From a virus, in IMG/VR virus record IMGVR_UViG_3300004807_000123, positions 1 to 24,137 of that record: DNA of 24,137 nt. The stretch is one strand, 5' to 3'. Shown in pieces: positions 2,802 through 21,193 of the stretch (position 1 is the first letter of the stretch; every line of letters starts with the position of its first letter). The translations under genes and the position numbers were made by a program. The notes under the pieces are model-generated. The model was given only the letters and a program-made list of their open reading frames with translations. It had not been told where the DNA came from and ran no database searches.

Positions 2802-3233
2802 TTAAGAATATAACCTTGTGCCTGCTTTATCGATAATGAGTGCCTGTTTCCTTGGAATCCCATTCGGCTCATTAGGAATGGAGATATGGGTCCAAGAATC
2901 AAATTCCCTAATAATCTGATCATAATCTATATTGGATGCCATGATGGTTTGGATGACTTCATTTGGTGTCATGCCTGGCACCCTAATGTCGGCTGCACAA
3001 CCTAGTCGATGTTGGCTAGTGTCTTTAGAACCCACAGAATCATTAACCAACTTGCTACGGTAAGCACTGTTAACCATGATTGGTTTACCACCCAATATCT
3101 CTTTAACCTTTTCAAGAAATGCTGCCAATCGTTTAAGGTTTTCAATTTCAGCCTCGTTCGGTGTGTTGTCAAATTCTCGGTGACTAGTAACAGTTAATTC
3201 TTCTAAAGTAAAGTGTTCAGTTAGTTGAGTCAT
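2802..3233 (-). CDS. Endolysin, peptidase M15 family (D,D/L,D-carboxypeptidase-like)
   Basis: A 143-residue protein with the zinc-peptidase M15 signature. It has YRS (58-60) in the substrate-binding position of this fold, then SQHRLGCAADI with His75 and Asp82, and WTHISIP with His116, the three expected zinc ligands. A glutamate at 110 is a candidate catalytic base. Family members cut peptide stems of peptidoglycan, so this is the lysis enzyme that opens the wall at the end of infection. It has no signal peptide and therefore needs a holin; small membrane proteins lie directly upstream. Its start overlaps the preceding stop (TAATG). Identification is firm at family level; the exact bond cut is unknown. 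Confidence 0.88.
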   Translation of the reverse strand: MTQLTEHFTLEELTVTSHREFDNTPNEAEIENLKRLAAFLEKVKEILGGKPIMVNSAYRSKLVNDSVGSKDTSQHRLGCAADIRVPGMTPNEVIQTIMASNIDYDQIIREFDSWTHISIPNEPNGIPRKQALIIDKAGTRLYS

Positions 3234-3436
3234 TATTTTTCTCCAATTTTAATGCCGGTTATTAAACCAATAAATCCGCCAATGACAGTTTGAAAACTTG
3301 GCCCAATAATTTTAAATACTTCAGTATCATCGACTGCCGGATCTAAAATGGCATAGATAAACATGAGTAACATGGCCACAATGACACAAACCAATGACCA
3401 GGCACAAATTAATAAAACATGATCTTTTACTTTCAT
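3233..3436 (-). CDS. Small two-segment membrane protein, holin-like
   Basis: 67 residues with a basic head (MKVKDH), a first hydrophobic segment (VLLICAWSLVCVIVAMLLMF), a short acidic loop (DPAVDDTE) and a second segment (FQTVIGGFIGLITGI) ending KIGEK. Two membrane spans, small size and position just before the endolysin fit a holin or an accessory or antiholin protein. It overlaps the upstream gene by ATGA. It could work with the three-span protein at 3433-3840. No named family is certain. Confidence 0.6.
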   Translation of the reverse strand: MKVKDHVLLICAWSLVCVIVAMLLMFIYAILDPAVDDTEVFKIIGPSFQTVIGGFIGLITGIKIGEK

Positions 3437-3840: not shown

Positions 3841-4070
3841 TTATCCACCTTGTTATCTAATTTATCAAACAGTTTATCCAAAATGGCTTCCAACTTGTCA
3901 AATCGTGCATCGATGTCAGTTTTACGAACATAGTTTGTTGGCAAATCAATTTCTAATTTTTTTAAATCATCTTTAAGATTTTGCGTAGCTTCCCATAACT
4001 GTCTAGCAAACCAACCTAAACAAGCTAGTGCTGCACCAATGCCTATGTTTAATAAATTTTGCATTTCCAT
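3837..4070 (-). CDS. Single-pass membrane protein with coiled coil, lysis cassette
   Basis: 77 residues: an N-terminal hydrophobic segment (LLNIGIGAALACLGWFARQL), then a charged helical region rich in Leu, Asp and Lys, ending ARFDKLEAILDKLFDKLDNK, which looks like a coiled coil. It could be a spanin-like or holin-accessory protein; the topology (one N-terminal span plus a coiled-coil tail) resembles i-spanins, but this cannot be proven. It starts just after the collar-fibre gene and overlaps the 3TM holin start. Either ATG (codon 1 or 3) could be used. Confidence 0.55.
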   Translation of the reverse strand: MEMQNLLNIGIGAALACLGWFARQLWEATQNLKDDLKKLEIDLPTNYVRKTDIDARFDKLEAILDKLFDKLDNKVDK

Positions 4071-10121: not shown

Positions 10122-12253
10122 TTTTCACCTACACTTGATTTAAGGTTAGCAGCCACAATGACCGCATTAATTGGATCAGTTACCACTAATTCAAATACTC
10201 GATCTCTAGTCATGCCTAATCTTCGCCAAATAGCACGATTCTTATATTTACCAATCTTACCAATACTTTTCCAATGCTCATTTGACCAAGTAGAGCCACC
10301 ATCATCGGACCATCTCATCATGGCCTGTGGATCAGCTCCCACAGTTTCAACATTTAATGGAGTAGTAATGCCAGTTAAACCAACACCAGGCTGAAAGTAC
10401 ACTTGTAATTCATCAAAGTATTCACGCTGATAATCGCTGACTAAATGCGTTGTTCTACGCAATCTACGGATTGGTTGGCCATTGTCAGTAAAATTGGTTG
10501 GATCTAATTCGTAAATATTGCCATTTTGCCAATCGCCAATCAACATCATATTCTGAAAGTTAATGCAACAATTGCCTCTGTGCCGGTGATACTGGTTTAA
10601 ATCATCACAGTAAAGCCACTTGTGCCACATTGAGGTTGCTACGTCATAGCACCATGTAATATCAAGCGTAGGGAAAGATAACACATAGACTTCATGGCCA
10701 CCCTGCTGATAAGTCCATGCCCTAGCATCCGTTACATCTTGATTAATGAAAGTGTTTTCGACTGCATGAGTAGAAATTCTAGTTGGAAAATATCCATTCA
10801 TCATTACTACTTCAGCTTGACCACGAATATTTTTACTTAGATAAGCAAATGAATTACCGACTCGAGCCACACTAAATTTGGCAACAATACCATGCTGACT
10901 AGAAGAACCAGGGATTCTTTGGAATGGGAATGGGAAAGCACCCACATCAGCCCAGACTTCAGAGGTAGTTTCGCCTAACAAATAAACTTGCCCATGATCT
11001 GCAATAACAGTTACTAAATTATCCGGTCCGGTAAACTTACTAGCAAAACTTAATGGTGGTGTAATTGGACTGAGGATATTGGACGCTGCCCATTGTTGAG
11101 TATTAGGATTATTGTAAATAAAGTAATTGTCGACAACATCCACAGAGCTTGCACCACTAAATGCACCATCAGTGGATGGCATCACTGAGAAATTGAGTGC
11201 ATACATGGTCTCGGATGCTACGGTCTGGCTATTATTAATTACATAATTGCCTGTGCCACCAGCACCAGTTCCAAAAGATAAAGTTAAGGTTAAACCTGTG
11301 CCACTTCCTGTGGTTGAAGTAGATACGTTATTTGTTGGGTTAGAAGTATAAGCACCCACATTTTGCACAGATAAGCCTGTAACTGCACCAGAGCCACCAA
11401 TTGAAGTTACTGTATAAGTCTGTGGTGTATTGCCATAAACACCCCCTAAAACTGTAATTGTGTCATTGACTGCATAACCTGTTCCTGCTGTTGCAATACT
11501 TTGGCTTAATACTGTGCCTGATCCATAAGTAGTAATAATCGTGTTTGCAGTTACTCCAGCACCTTGAATGGTTTGACCATTATAAATAGTGCCACTTGTT
11601 GCAGTAACAGTTAAAGTTGTGCCTGACATCGATGCAGTAAGAGTTGATGCTACTGCTGCCGAGTTCATTTGTTCTGTGGCAATCGTTAATGAAGTATTAA
11701 TCGTGTATGTACCAACTCCACCTGTTCCTGAGCCTAATGCAGTGATTACCACTTCATTGCCGATACCTAAACCAAATAATGATTGACCTACTGCGATAGT
11801 GCCTGATTGCATTAATGTAACAGTTAAAGTTGTTCCACTGATCGAACCTCTAAATATAGCCGATGCAGGATTACTAATTCGCCAAGTATAACGATAAGTA
11901 CCATCAACAATATAGACGTTTTGACCATTGTCGGTAATTCCTACAATACCTGATGAGGTATTTAATTGACCTACTAATGTTGGGGTTAGATTAGACGTTA
12001 AAACATAAACATAAGGCCCACAAACTGCAACAGCATATTGCCCACCACTAACAGTTCTCATTCCTCGCACTTCAGCCATTGCTGACAAAACTGCTTTAGC
12101 AGATAAACCTGGCGTTGGATATAAGGCCACTACACCATTTTGACCTGCTTGTTTTGTAATATCTATTTCTGTACGAAAATTGATGCAATCTTCGCCATTG
12201 ACGTAAATGGACTGAGCAACATAAGTAGGGCCAACAAAGCCAAAATCTGCCAT
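10118..12253 (-). CDS. Tail hub / packaged-DNA stabilisation protein, P22 gp10-like, with inserted modules
   Basis: The N-terminal ~130 residues and the region from ~355 to the end match the beta-propeller-like gp10 family: VVDNYFIYNNPNTQQW, GIVAKFSVARVGNSFAYLSK, and the C-terminal MMRWSDDGGSTWSNEHW with IGKYKNRAIWRRLGMTRDR. In P22, gp10 caps the portal channel with gp4 and holds the DNA in. This copy (711 aa) is about 240 residues longer than P22 gp10 because residues ~134-352 are Gly/Thr/Ser-rich inserts: one full module at 134-200, and a second at ~205-352 that is itself split by another module at ~248-328. The start overlaps the endonuclease stop (TAATG); the binding site AAAGGAG lies in the endonuclease's last codons. 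Confidence 0.85.
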   Translation of the reverse strand: MADFGFVGPTYVAQSIYVNGEDCINFRTEIDITKQAGQNGVVALYPTPGLSAKAVLSAMAEVRGMRTVSGGQYAVAVCGPYVYVLTSNLTPTLVGQLNTSSGIVGITDNGQNVYIVDGTYRYTWRISNPASAIFRGSISGTTLTVTLMQSGTIAVGQSLFGLGIGNEVVITALGSGTGGVGTYTINTSLTIATEQMNSAAVASTLTASMSGTTLTVTATSGTIYNGQTIQGAGVTANTIITTYGSGTVLSQSIATAGTGYAVNDTITVLGGVYGNTPQTYTVTSIGGSGAVTGLSVQNVGAYTSNPTNNVSTSTTGSGTGLTLTLSFGTGAGGTGNYVINNSQTVASETMYALNFSVMPSTDGAFSGASSVDVVDNYFIYNNPNTQQWAASNILSPITPPLSFASKFTGPDNLVTVIADHGQVYLLGETTSEVWADVGAFPFPFQRIPGSSSQHGIVAKFSVARVGNSFAYLSKNIRGQAEVVMMNGYFPTRISTHAVENTFINQDVTDARAWTYQQGGHEVYVLSFPTLDITWCYDVATSMWHKWLYCDDLNQYHRHRGNCCINFQNMMLIGDWQNGNIYELDPTNFTDNGQPIRRLRRTTHLVSDYQREYFDELQVYFQPGVGLTGITTPLNVETVGADPQAMMRWSDDGGSTWSNEHWKSIGKIGKYKNRAIWRRLGMTRDRVFELVVTDPINAVIVAANLKSSVGEN

Positions 12254-12858
12254 TAAATAACTCCTTTATATCGTTCACCACGCCATATTTTATGTATGGT
12301 ATTTTTGTGAACATTAAATTTATTACCTAATTCAATATGAGTCATAATCCCTTTGTTGGCTCGAACAAATCTTACTTCGTCATCTGTTAATTTTGCAGTA
12401 TTCTTGTTTCCAAGCAATCCTTTGCTAATTGCTTCACAATGTGATTCTGTTAATGGTTTTCCAATTCTGGCAATACTTATTTTTTCTTTGGTTTCATCTG
12501 TTAATTTAACCCCTTTACGAGGGCTTTGAACACCTTTACGCATTACACTCCATTTGCGTTTTTGGTATTCAGAATGACTCATTGAATAGCCAGAACAACC
12601 TTCACCACCATTTGTTAAATTAATTAATTTGATACCACGCTTTTTATAAACATCAATACATTCCATTTCAGCTAAAAAAGCCAATTCTTCATCTAAATTA
12701 TCTTTAATTATTTCAGATACAAATCCATGCTTCGCAACATAAAATTTCCAATATCTACCTCTTTTATTTGTATCAGAGTGACGCTTGTCTTTACCTTTTC
12801 CAACATAAAAGATATTGTTAGTGTCTAATGCTCGATGTTGATAGATGTAATATTGCAT
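12253..12858 (-). CDS. Free-standing GIY-YIG homing endonuclease, 201 aa
   Basis: I start at ATG 12858 (MQYYIYQHRALDTNNIFYVG), 13 nt after the gp4-like stop; the longer frame would extend back into that gene. Residues 1-90 are a GIY-YIG nuclease domain: YYIY (3-6), FYVGKG (17-22), basic residues around RGRYWKF, a Glu in AEMECIDVY (64 or 66, expected metal ligand) and INLTNGGEG. Residues ~105-152 carry repeats of the NUMOD3 DNA-binding type (KGVKLTDETKEKISIARIGK). The C-terminus (THIELGNKFNVHKNTIHKIW) is a helix-turn-helix. Such enzymes cut DNA lacking their insertion and spread by repair. It sits exactly between gp4 and gp10 homologues, and its last codons supply the gp10 binding site. Confidence 0.88.
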   Translation of the reverse strand: MQYYIYQHRALDTNNIFYVGKGKDKRHSDTNKRGRYWKFYVAKHGFVSEIIKDNLDEELAFLAEMECIDVYKKRGIKLINLTNGGEGCSGYSMSHSEYQKRKWSVMRKGVQSPRKGVKLTDETKEKISIARIGKPLTESHCEAISKGLLGNKNTAKLTDDEVRFVRANKGIMTHIELGNKFNVHKNTIHKIWRGERYKGVI

Positions 12859-12871
12859 AAGTATATGATTC

Positions 12872-13843
12872 TTAACGAAAAAATCCGCCTGCGAGAACCC
12901 AACCAGCATCTTTCTGTCTACTACTTAATAACGCATCAGCAAACCTTGCATTCTGTACCGGCTTCATGTTTGTACGTTTAATAGTGCTTTTAGATTGTGC
13001 TGCGTAACTCTGAATTAAACCAATTTGCGTTGGTGAGGCTTTGCCATACATCGGCATTAAACGCTCTGCTAAGCACCATCTAAGGCACATATTGTAGCCT
13101 TGAGGTAAATTGATTACATCATTCTGATTAACGAATCTTGCTAGAATAGTATTTGCAAATAGATGCATTTCACCTTGTGATGGATTGGGCCACACAAAGA
13201 TATTACCGAGTGTTTCTGTTGGCTGATAATAAATTGCTTTAGGCCAAGGACCAGATAAAGTTTTTAAACCAATCATTTCATAATTTTCAACGCTCAATAT
13301 TGCGCAAGGATAATCTAAGCCACCATTTAATATTGGCTGACCATTACTGTTTGTATTGACTCGAACAAAGGCAGTATCAATTACTAGTGGTCTTTGGTAA
13401 TAAGAGTTGATTGTTGTAGAAGATGCAGTTTGACTTATATTAACTGTATATGTGCCTGCTTCGTTAATGTTGCCACCAGCACCAGTTCCAAAGCCTACGA
13501 TAGTTGTGCCACTAGAAACACCTGTTCCTGATAGCGTCTGACCTAATGCAATTGCACCACTCTGAATCGCAGTAATGGTTAAGGTTGTGCCAGAGATTGA
13601 GCCAGTAAAGACTGCACCAATCTGCCCACCTGGTCCAATCGTGTATTGTGTTTGCCCTGGTGTGACTGGAAAGATAATTTCAGTCTTATAGTAAATCATC
13701 ATGGATTCATTAGACCATTGATCTAACATATCATTGAGCATATCAAAGGCATCTTGTGCATCTTCAGGAGCAGGAGTTTCTCCGGCAGCCAAAGCACCAA
13801 TGTCCTTTAATGCTCTGCTGATAATGTCAATTGGCTGTGTCAT
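12872..13843 (-). CDS. Tail accessory factor, P22 gp4-like, with inserted beta module
   Basis: The N-terminus [17 protein letters not shown], then [18 protein letters not shown], and the C-terminal half ([33 protein letters not shown]) are those of the gp4 'packaged DNA stabilisation' family, a helical ring that sits under the portal and binds the tail hub. P22 gp4 is about 166 aa; this one is 323 aa, partly because residues ~75-148 ([20 protein letters not shown] ... [13 protein letters not shown]) are an inserted Gly/Thr-rich module like that in the gp10 homologue. The longer family members known from environmental phages are nearer this size. The start overlaps the preceding stop by ATGA. 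Confidence 0.8.
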
Positions 13844-19668: not shown

Positions 19669-21193
19669 TTAAGCTGCGATACGGCAAGCGAGTTCAGGAT
19701 AGAGCGGGGCCCATCCGTACAATACATCTAAACGAGTAGGAATACTGTCGTTGTTAATTGTGTATTGACGAACAATACGCATACTTAAACCGATTTCCTT
19801 ATCAGAGGCACGACCTGCGAAATGAACACCTTCAGGGAGCTCTAAATCTGCTACTGCGAGCGAAAAAGAATTTCTATGCATGATTATATTCTGTGGAGAT
19901 ACTGCACCAGTTGAATTGAACTGAGTTACCGCAGCAGAAGATGATGGTGAAGGAATCGATACGTTTTGGAACTGGCCAGCAGTAATAACCGCAGGAGATA
20001 CCACAACAGAAACGCTTGAACCTGAAGCAATCGTAACAGCAGACTTAACCACAAAGTTACGGAGCTTGTTTGAACCATACGCTTGACGATTCTGTGGGTT
20101 AACTGCGTAAACACCAGCGATCGTGAATGTATCACCGGCATTTAATACTAAGTTACCAGTATTGGCAGCAGTCAAAGTGATTGTTGAGCTTGATGCCCAG
20201 CCACTTGTTAAGAAACCAGTTGCAGTTGTAGTTGCTACAGATGCAGTCACAGTAGTTGTGCTGTTATTACCGAATACTTGAGACTGAATATTTTGGTCTA
20301 ATTTCCAGTTCATCCCCGCGGAATCGCGACCCATAAGTCCTTTGCGATACTGTTCGCCAATTGCTTCTTGAGGTACGAATAAACCTTTTAAAGAATCAAC
20401 AATCGTTGCAGATGTGAATGGCTCAACGATGCATGATCTGCGACCATCTCTAGGAGCACCTTCAGAATCAAGGTAAGCACCAGCAGTTAGATAAGTAATC
20501 AAACCAGTTGGAGGAGTACCAGCAACACCTACAATGTTTGCAGTATTGAGGGTAGCCATTGCCAATCCATCTCTGTCAATTTTGTTTGCAATCGCAGCGA
20601 CTGCAGGCTTCAAAACTCTATCGCTGAACATATCTAAAGATAATGCTAAGTCGGTCGTTGTAAACTGTGTGTCAACGTGGAACTGCGTTGACAAAGTAAT
20701 AGGTACAGATGATTCGTTAAAATCTTCTACGTTCAGGGCTGGCCCTGTTGATCCAATAAAGCGTCCAGGTCTCATTCTGTTACTTTCAGTCTTACGACCT
20801 ACTGACCATTTCTGGCGGTGCAATTTCTTCGAATCGCACTCTAAGGCTTCTTTAGTTATACCTTAGTTCAGACTATCGCATCTACTTTCGTAGGCTTCTC
20901 ACTTAGTCGTTCAGGCTGCTTTCGCTTGCCCCTTGTTACCCACTTCTGGGACTCCAAGTCAATCAGAGAAACTTTTTCGTCCGCACACCTAGTTCTTTTT
21001 ACGGACGTTTACTGTGTTACCAATCTTACCACCTCAAATGCAAGATTCACAGTAAAAACTGAGGCAGGCTTTATACCACAGCGAATTGATCGTCATAATT
21101 ACGATCTACTTCAGAAGTGAATGTTAATTCGTTCTCCAAGACCATCAACGCTTCGTTGGTGATCTTAGAAATGGTTAGCAAGTTATTTGCCAT
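19669..21193 (-). CDS. Major capsid (coat) protein, P22 coat family, split by an intron and a 40-nt insertion
   Basis: Coding segments on the minus strand are 21193-21074 (MANNLLTISKITNEALMVLE ... YDDQFAV), 21033-21001 (GGKIGNTVNVR) and 20772-19669 (RPGRFIGSTGPALNVEDFNE to the end). Joined they give about 418 residues, close to the ~430 of P22-type coat. Motifs such as LTISKITNEAL, YDDQFAV, KIGNTVNVR and TTTDLALSLDMFSDR are those of the family, which builds the HK97-fold shell. The 228-nt gap at 20773-21000 is a group I intron and restores the frame exactly (NVR/RPGRF). The 40 nt at 21034-21073 starts with TAA, ends with TGA and shifts the frame; no intron explains it. The binding site AAAGGAA lies before ATG 21193. 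As written, the mRNA would not give full coat without removing or skipping the 40 nt. Confidence 0.85.
20773..21000 (-). ncRNA. Group I self-splicing intron, 228 nt, no ORF
   Basis: On the minus strand, P1 pairs the exon end CGTCCGT (21007-21001) with the guide GCGGACG (20984-20978), ending in the U-G wobble typical of group I 5' sites. P10 can form between AGGT (20990-20987) and exon ACCT (20770-20767). Core elements: P3 TTCTC (20970-20966) with GAGAA (20900-20896); P5-like hairpin CCCA-GAAG-TGGG (20950-20939); P6-like hairpin at 20930-20914 with a GAAA loop; P7 GACTA (20908-20904) with TAGTC (20875-20871), inside CCTGAACGACTA and GATAGTCTGAAC; P8 CTAC-GAAA-GTAG (20893-20882); P9 CTAAGG (20866-20861) with CCTTAG (20846-20841). 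The last intron base is G 20773. Removal joins GNTVNVR to RPGRFIGS in frame. An in-frame TAG appears four codons into the intron. Confidence 0.88.
21034..21073 (-). other. 40-nt frame-breaking insertion in the coat gene with long hairpin potential
   Basis: Relative to the coat family, 40 nt stand between the codons for ...FAVV and GGKIGNTVNVR. The segment begins TAA, ends TGA and shifts the frame by one. Its 3' half is an inverted near-copy of the following coding sequence: TTTACTGTG (21056-21048) pairs with CACAGTAAA (21016-21008), and AATCTTGC (21047-21040) with GTAAGATT (21029-21022). This gives 17 bp with a 5-nt bulge and a 10-nt loop. The hairpin base abuts intron helix P1. An alternative stem, CTGCCTCA with TGAGGTGG, is also possible. 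Origin and effect are unknown; an assembly or base error cannot be excluded. Confidence 0.6.

Follow-up and report, generated by a model that had tools for sequence, protein, structure and literature searches.

The gene coding for the P22-like coat protein in IMG/VR virus record IMGVR_UViG_3300004807_000123 is interrupted by two introns, and is likely served by one ribozyme only. The DNA analyzed, hereafter the window, spans positions 1 to 24,137 of the record. Intron B measures 228 nt and corresponds to a complete group I ribozyme. The second insert, located 34 nt upstream and called here mini-intron, measures 40 nt, and is probably a group I intron which has no core of its own and is spliced by the core of the neighbouring intron B. 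We regard it as rather likely that the mini-intron is a natural non-autonomous group I intron, excised in cis, and that the core of the neighbour is offered two alternative P1 helices. The coordinates of exons, introns and pairing segments are listed in Table 1.

The product of the gene was identified as a P22-like coat protein by matches to PF11651 (E=8.3e-28) and to phrog_283, major head protein (E=9.3e-58). Relatives with an uninterrupted gene are abundant. The comparison with them, proposed by the initial annotation, revealed that, among 80 IMG/VR sequences closely related to the coat, 78 carry neither interruption, and are continuous through ...GNTVNVR^[RK]PGRF (^ denotes exon-intron boundaries and exon junctions). 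The intronless sequence reads DRNYDDQFAVVG[GA]KIGNTVNVR, with minor variants, in all of them. The exact junction of GNTVNVR to RPGRFIGS, predicted by the initial annotation upon removal of intron B, is the same sequence found in intronless relatives. The coat frame, in contrast to what was claimed, is not restored by this junction, as 40 nt containing stop codons and shifting the frame remain at 21035-21074. The frame in the window halts at DDQFAVV*, where AUAAAGCC...UUUG, 40 nt in all, is found between GUGGU and AGGUGG. The gene is thus still broken when intron B alone is removed. Removal of both inserts yields an intact coat, of 418 aa in the window, and the same holds for 28 other full-length genes checked. 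Purifying selection on the spliced coat is strong, with a mean dN/dS of 0.057 over codons 1-150.

Table 1. Exons, introns and pairing segments of the coat gene in the window
Feature	Position	Strand	Sequence and evidence
Coat exon 1 (codons 1-39 plus two bases)	21075-21193	-	MANNLLTISKITNEALMVLENELTFTSEVDRNYDDQFAV(V), ends ...GCUGUGGU^; collinear with the coats of intronless relatives
Mini-intron, 40 nt, core-less	21035-21074	-	AUAAAGCCUGCCUCAGUUUUUACUGUGAAUCUUGCAUUUG, U^ and G^ boundaries; absent from intronless relatives, splice-aware mapping
P10' strand of the mini-intron	21066-21069	-	GCCU, pairs with AGGU at the start of the mid exon
Guide of the mini-intron	21058-21065	-	GCCUCAGU, pairs with the exon end GCUGUGGU to give P1', which has U.G at the splice site and a single, invariant U.U mismatch
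PX, 5' strand (within the mini-intron)	21048-21056	-	UUUACUGUG, pairs with 21008-21016
PX, 3' strand (in the mid exon)	21008-21016	-	CACAGUAAA, directly precedes the P1 strand of intron B
Mid exon, 34 nt, between both introns	21001-21034	-	GGKIGNTVNVR, conserved in all intronless relatives
Intron B, 228 nt, ORF-less group I	20773-21000	-	Covariance model match, covariation, exon join as in relatives
Guide of intron B	20978-20984	-	GCGGACG, P1 with the exon end CGUCCGU (21001-21007)
Catalytic core of intron B, P3 to P7	20866-20974	-	Covariance model match, core covariation
P3 of intron B	20966-20972 with 20894-20900	-	GUUUCUC/GAGAAGC
P7 of intron B	20904-20908 with 20871-20875	-	GACUA/UAGUC
P8 of intron B	20882-20893	-	CUAC/GUAG
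Coat exon 3, to the stop	19669-20772	-	RPGRFIGS...; PF11651, phrog_283

The sequence confirms intron B as a genuine group I intron, devoid of an ORF and belonging to a phage family overlooked by the general Rfam model. The Rfam search recommended by the initial annotation was negative: no group I match to RF00028 was found in the window, either at the gathering threshold or at permissive E-values, and a sister intron in contig L147 matches this model weakly (24.7 bits, E=0.039). The missing match is a limit of one model, not a defining feature of the group I class. A covariance model of the family, trained on 19 introns residing at other coat sites, none at the intron B site, selected the core segment of the window (20866-20974, minus strand) with 122.7 bits and E=1.8e-26. 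The runner-up had E=0.83. The score of the family model excludes a chance origin of intron B. The compact ORF-less group I intron described in the major capsid gene by the initial annotation is therefore supported by both the model and the covariation of the core, and the P1 with its U-G pair, P3, P7, P8 and P9 were all found where they had been placed. P9 is formed by CUAAGG/CCUUAG; P4, P5, P6, P9.1 and the terminal G were likewise found. P1 features the U.G pair at the splice site, and is CGUCCGU/GCGGACG in 20/20 haplotypes. The 3' end reads ...CAGAAUG^AGACCU. The fold of intron B is better than that of 200/200 shuffled sequences (z -2.95). In 30 members of the family, 97.4% of the cells paired in the core are standard, and cells changed at both sides are 143, versus 41 in shuffled sets; pairing falls to 37-49% in slid registers. 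P3 covaries at 6 of its 7 pairs, covariation was observed also in P5, P6 and P8, and P7 is 100% paired and invariant.

A group I intron in a capsid gene is not unusual in kind. Phage group I introns are known from td, nrdB, Twort and SPO1. Capsid genes are interrupted by group I introns in mycobacteriophage LittleE and lactococcal phage Tuc2009, and efficient splicing of the LittleE intron has been documented by RT-PCR and protein sequencing (PMC3706429). Intron B resembles phage group I introns in the P1-P9 architecture, the 5' U.G, the terminal G and the location in a conserved phage gene. It differs from them in belonging to an ORF-less family which scores below the RF00028 threshold and marks at least 16 sites in one coat gene, and in having a core-less partner. 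The more surprising part, absent from the initial annotation, is this core-less intron at codon 39.

Mini-introns were found in at least 50 other contigs, by pattern scans which did not require intron B; these contigs, of metagenomic origin, are partly redundant and derive from related phages, among which recombination may occur. The elements have been sorted into 20 distinct variants, 32-41 nt in length, inserted always at the same point (codon 39, phase 2, U^A...UUG^AGG). A scan of genome contigs gave 8 chance matches in unrelated bacteria, none of which has a core. A catalytic core (P3, P4-P6, P7, P8) is missing in the mini-intron: there is no room for it in 32-41 nt, and no core motif was found, hence the element is not a group I intron able to splice alone. 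It features a P1' helix with the U.G pair, a P10' helix and a terminal G, as group I introns do, covarying in 19-20 haplotypes. Taken together, the comparative data make it very probable that the 40 nt are excised at the RNA level.

Stop codons and the shifted frame might as well denote a coat pseudogene, or an insert due to errors in sequencing or assembly. Both are extremely improbable, given that 20 variants of different length, with matched covariation, are found in so many contigs, and that the dN/dS is about 0.06. Contig L038, 98% identical to the window over most of the compared stretch, carries both introns. The corresponding 35.7-kb record includes one coat gene and a single core of the intron B family, and the lack of a second coat gene also argues against a pseudogene.

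Residues 6-16 of the insert (GCCU-GCCUCAG) can pair with both exons in the exact group I register. P1' is formed by GCCUCAG(U) and the exon end (GC)UGUGGU, P10' by GCCU and the start of the downstream exon, AGGU. Exons carrying GCU, GCA or GCG are matched by inserts carrying CAG, CUG or CCG, respectively, so that exon GC[U/A/G]GUGGU is always associated with guide GCCUC[A/U/C]G. Similarly, AGGU is found with GCCU or ACCU, AGGA with UCCU, AGGG with CCCU. Pairs are conserved in 133 of 152 instances in P1', the sole failure being one invariant mismatch column, and in 76 of 76 (19 haplotypes) in P10'. At least 4 independent changes in P1' and at least 7 in P10' were counted on the exon 3 tree; the covarying exon positions are few, and correspond to third positions of codons.

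The third helix, PX, involves residues of the mini-intron and of the mid exon, and tracks synonymous changes of the latter, as shown by the pairs UUUACUGUG/CACAGUAAA in the window and UUAACUGUAG/CUACAGUUAA in L095. PX was counted by an anchored search, because it is misplaced in short variants by the MAFFT alignment (gap, columns 32-39). The score was 417, versus 315 in permuted sets (max 371). The values observed for P1', P10' and PX were never reached by permutations. In the pair count, where PX is represented only by rows with letters at those columns, the helices of the mini-intron are 99.8% paired, with a covariation score of 0.152 versus 0.049, and pairing is 29-51% in slid registers. 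In all 19 haplotypes PX begins 0-2 nt past the guide of the mini-intron, and the gap to the exon strand of P1 of intron B is 0. When the window and four divergent variants were folded without constraints, the minimum free energy structures featured P1', PX and P1 of intron B as three adjacent helices. PX thus adjoins P1 of intron B, and on this ground, together with the folds, the 3' ends of the two guides are modelled as sharing one junction, close to J1/2 and the intron B core. In several relatives with introns at other sites (as 108.2 and 357.2), inspection by eye revealed a P2 hairpin directly after the guide.

Mini-intron and intron B coexist at 48 loci. Among the loci listed, which were gathered by different search patterns, none has a mini-intron without intron B, and 2 (L150 and L157) have intron B without a mini-intron. 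Four mini-intron loci are cut by the contig end, each inside intron B. The intron B core lies at +161-171 nt from every mini-intron having enough downstream sequence. Exactly at the mini-intron site, L242 and L243 are interrupted by a complete group I intron of the intron B family, 226 and 228 nt long, respectively, and neither has an intron at the intron B site. The ends of these introns match those of the mini-intron (5' A..CCUGCC, 3' AUUG^AGG), and the guide is followed by a P2 hairpin. Because site and ends are the same, the mini-intron is read as a core-less version of the L242/L243 intron. Sequence comparison, in which the shared ends are short, indicates that it likely derives from a full group I intron by loss of the core.

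Degenerate group I introns only 63-75 nt long, found in the fungal SSU rRNA of Phialophora (PaSSU), have been reported to splice, one of them in vitro; they feature P1, P7, P10 and a helix with the 3' exon, and exon sequence is needed (PMC3160393). The mini-intron resembles them as a very short group I remnant with P1, P10 and an intron-3' exon helix, and might similarly splice alone, assisted by exon sequences, without intron B. This is unlikely. Phialophora introns reside in rRNA, are said to have kept P7, terminate with U, and are presented as splicing on their own with the help of exon and ITS1 sequences. In contrast, the mini-intron resides in a protein gene, has neither P7 nor a G-binding site in its 32-41 nt, ends with UUG^ in all variants, and has a ribozyme 34 nt downstream, with which it shares a helix junction. 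Solo splicing moreover leaves unexplained why the element is never found without intron B, and why PX ends exactly at P1 of intron B. For reduction this extreme, Phialophora introns are the closest parallel, yet they have no partner ribozyme.

The reading in which the mini-intron is spliced by the intron B core rests, for its boundaries, the three covarying helices, the strict linkage to intron B, the full-length intron at the same site and the selection acting on the coat, on comparison of sequences; from these data we infer the chemistry, the identity of the catalyst, its action in cis and the sequence of events. Intron B, a complete ribozyme, would excise itself by using its own P1. The mini-intron would retain only the parts of a substrate, the guide (P1', P10') and the G at the 3' splice site. 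PX would bring the 3' end of the guide to the three-way junction where P1 of intron B enters the core via J1/2. P1' could replace P1 there, and PX would fill the position occupied by P2 in relatives. The intron B core would cut at GUGGU^A, and then join the exon to ^AGGUGG. Self-splicing of intron B, by its own P1, might either precede or follow removal of the mini-intron. The role of intron B as catalyst, suggested by the linkage, the geometry and PX, is the least secure step. Joining of the 5' site of the mini-intron to the 3' site of intron B, with skipping of the mid exon, was checked by hand and rejected as a productive route, because the resulting frame is wrong.

Removal of introns in trans has been engineered with group I ribozymes. 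In spliceozymes, a group I core removes another intron (PMC4094466), and the mini-intron could be removed in trans too, by freed intron B, by another copy of the transcript, or by some other factor of phage or host. We consider this improbable: the fixed 34-nt spacing and the position of PX next to P1 of intron B favour action in cis, and a second core of the family was not found in the 35.7-kb record of L038. Spliceozymes and the proposed system have in common a core removing a different intron and the recognition of two splice sites, to which linkage and PX geometry point here. Spliceozymes are however engineered and work in trans, whereas the mini-intron system is natural and putatively works in cis, and the substrate intron has its own guide. 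Neighbouring group I introns can combine their splice sites, as reported for phage Twort and for the terminase gene of SIOphi, where the exon between two introns is skipped (PMC11878797). In those phages both introns are complete, as far as reported, and skipping is a variant; here one intron is core-less, and coat production requires removal of the two. A literature search confined largely to openly accessible papers gave no account of a natural group I intron which lacks a core and is linked to the ribozyme of a neighbour.

The mini-intron might not be removed at all, ribosomes hopping over the 40 nt while P1' and P10' bring the take-off and landing sites together. In T4 gene 60, ribosomes bypass an interruption of 50 nt, where the last decoded codon is followed by a stop. 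The mini-intron is short as well (32-41 nt), in most variants UAA follows the putative take-off codon GUA, the size is about right, and hairpins can be formed. Nonetheless, hopping is highly implausible, because GUA has no matched landing codon with which peptidyl-tRNA-Val could pair, and an invariant UGA precedes the landing frame in 20/20 haplotypes. In addition, GUA is not directly followed by the stop in L095 and L219, boundaries and guide pairing are those of group I introns, and relatives carry a full-length group I intron exactly at this site. Frameshifting and read-through were rejected, as the mid-exon frame is closed by UGA in every haplotype, and the insert lengths (32, 33, 34, 40 or 41 nt) are not equivalent in frame.

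Group I introns are viewed as self-contained elements, each equipped with the ribozyme which removes it. The mini-intron seems to have discarded its ribozyme and to use that of the neighbour, in the gene encoding the most abundant protein of the phage. The coat gene may provide a small natural model for the rise of dependent introns and of a shared catalytic core, a course of events which has been suggested to link group II introns with the spliceosome. If the proposed splicing is correct, two introns and one ribozyme would form a system resembling an early step towards guide RNAs and a shared core. The system, compact, with one core and two substrates, may also be of use in RNA engineering, and fits a transcript of about 0.5 kb. 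Genes of this type are left broken by annotation procedures removing only introns with a recognizable core.

The coat gene is an intron hotspot in this phage clade. Up to four group I introns per gene were found, which with few exceptions are members of one family; the sites are codons 22, 36, 39, 45, 47, 51, 73, 85, 103, 108, 204 (two phases), 357, 366, 386, 389 and 394. Relatives include L083, L087, L108, L147, L150, L152, L209, L221 and L237, and guides fit each site. A small insert accompanies a related group I intron at codon 47 in L108 (5902-5990, plus strand), L129, L194 (5651-5740, plus strand), L196 and L244-L247. It measures 11 nt (CTATAAACCTG) or 12 nt (TTATAAACCCTG), is located about 40 nt upstream of the codon-47 intron, and features an in-frame TAA and U^ and G^ boundaries (GAU^...^CAG). 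It is possibly an even smaller dependent intron; conceivably, a candidate guide lies in the mid exon, where GUUGUCG could pair with CGACGAU.

A homing endonuclease-like ORF (phrog_314, E=4e-23) was found in the window at 12253-12909, minus strand, between two structural genes and outside recognizable introns, and is a candidate for the mobilization in trans of ORF-less introns. L139 carries an intron of the intron B family at codon 51 (505-1000). Its coat gene is far more distant (identity 41%) and has no mini-intron, and the finding suggests that the family has spread between phage lineages. A group I intron of a different type, about 288 nt long, with P7 GACUAG/AUAGUC, is located at codon 36 in L135 (minus strand, near 3905 of the reverse complement). 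In the GenBank phage MW202674.1 (L082, Manatee Spring), two P22 coat proteins and a hypothetical protein between them are annotated in the region including 3118-3370; they correspond to a single coat gene, interrupted at codon 85 by a group I intron of 268 nt.
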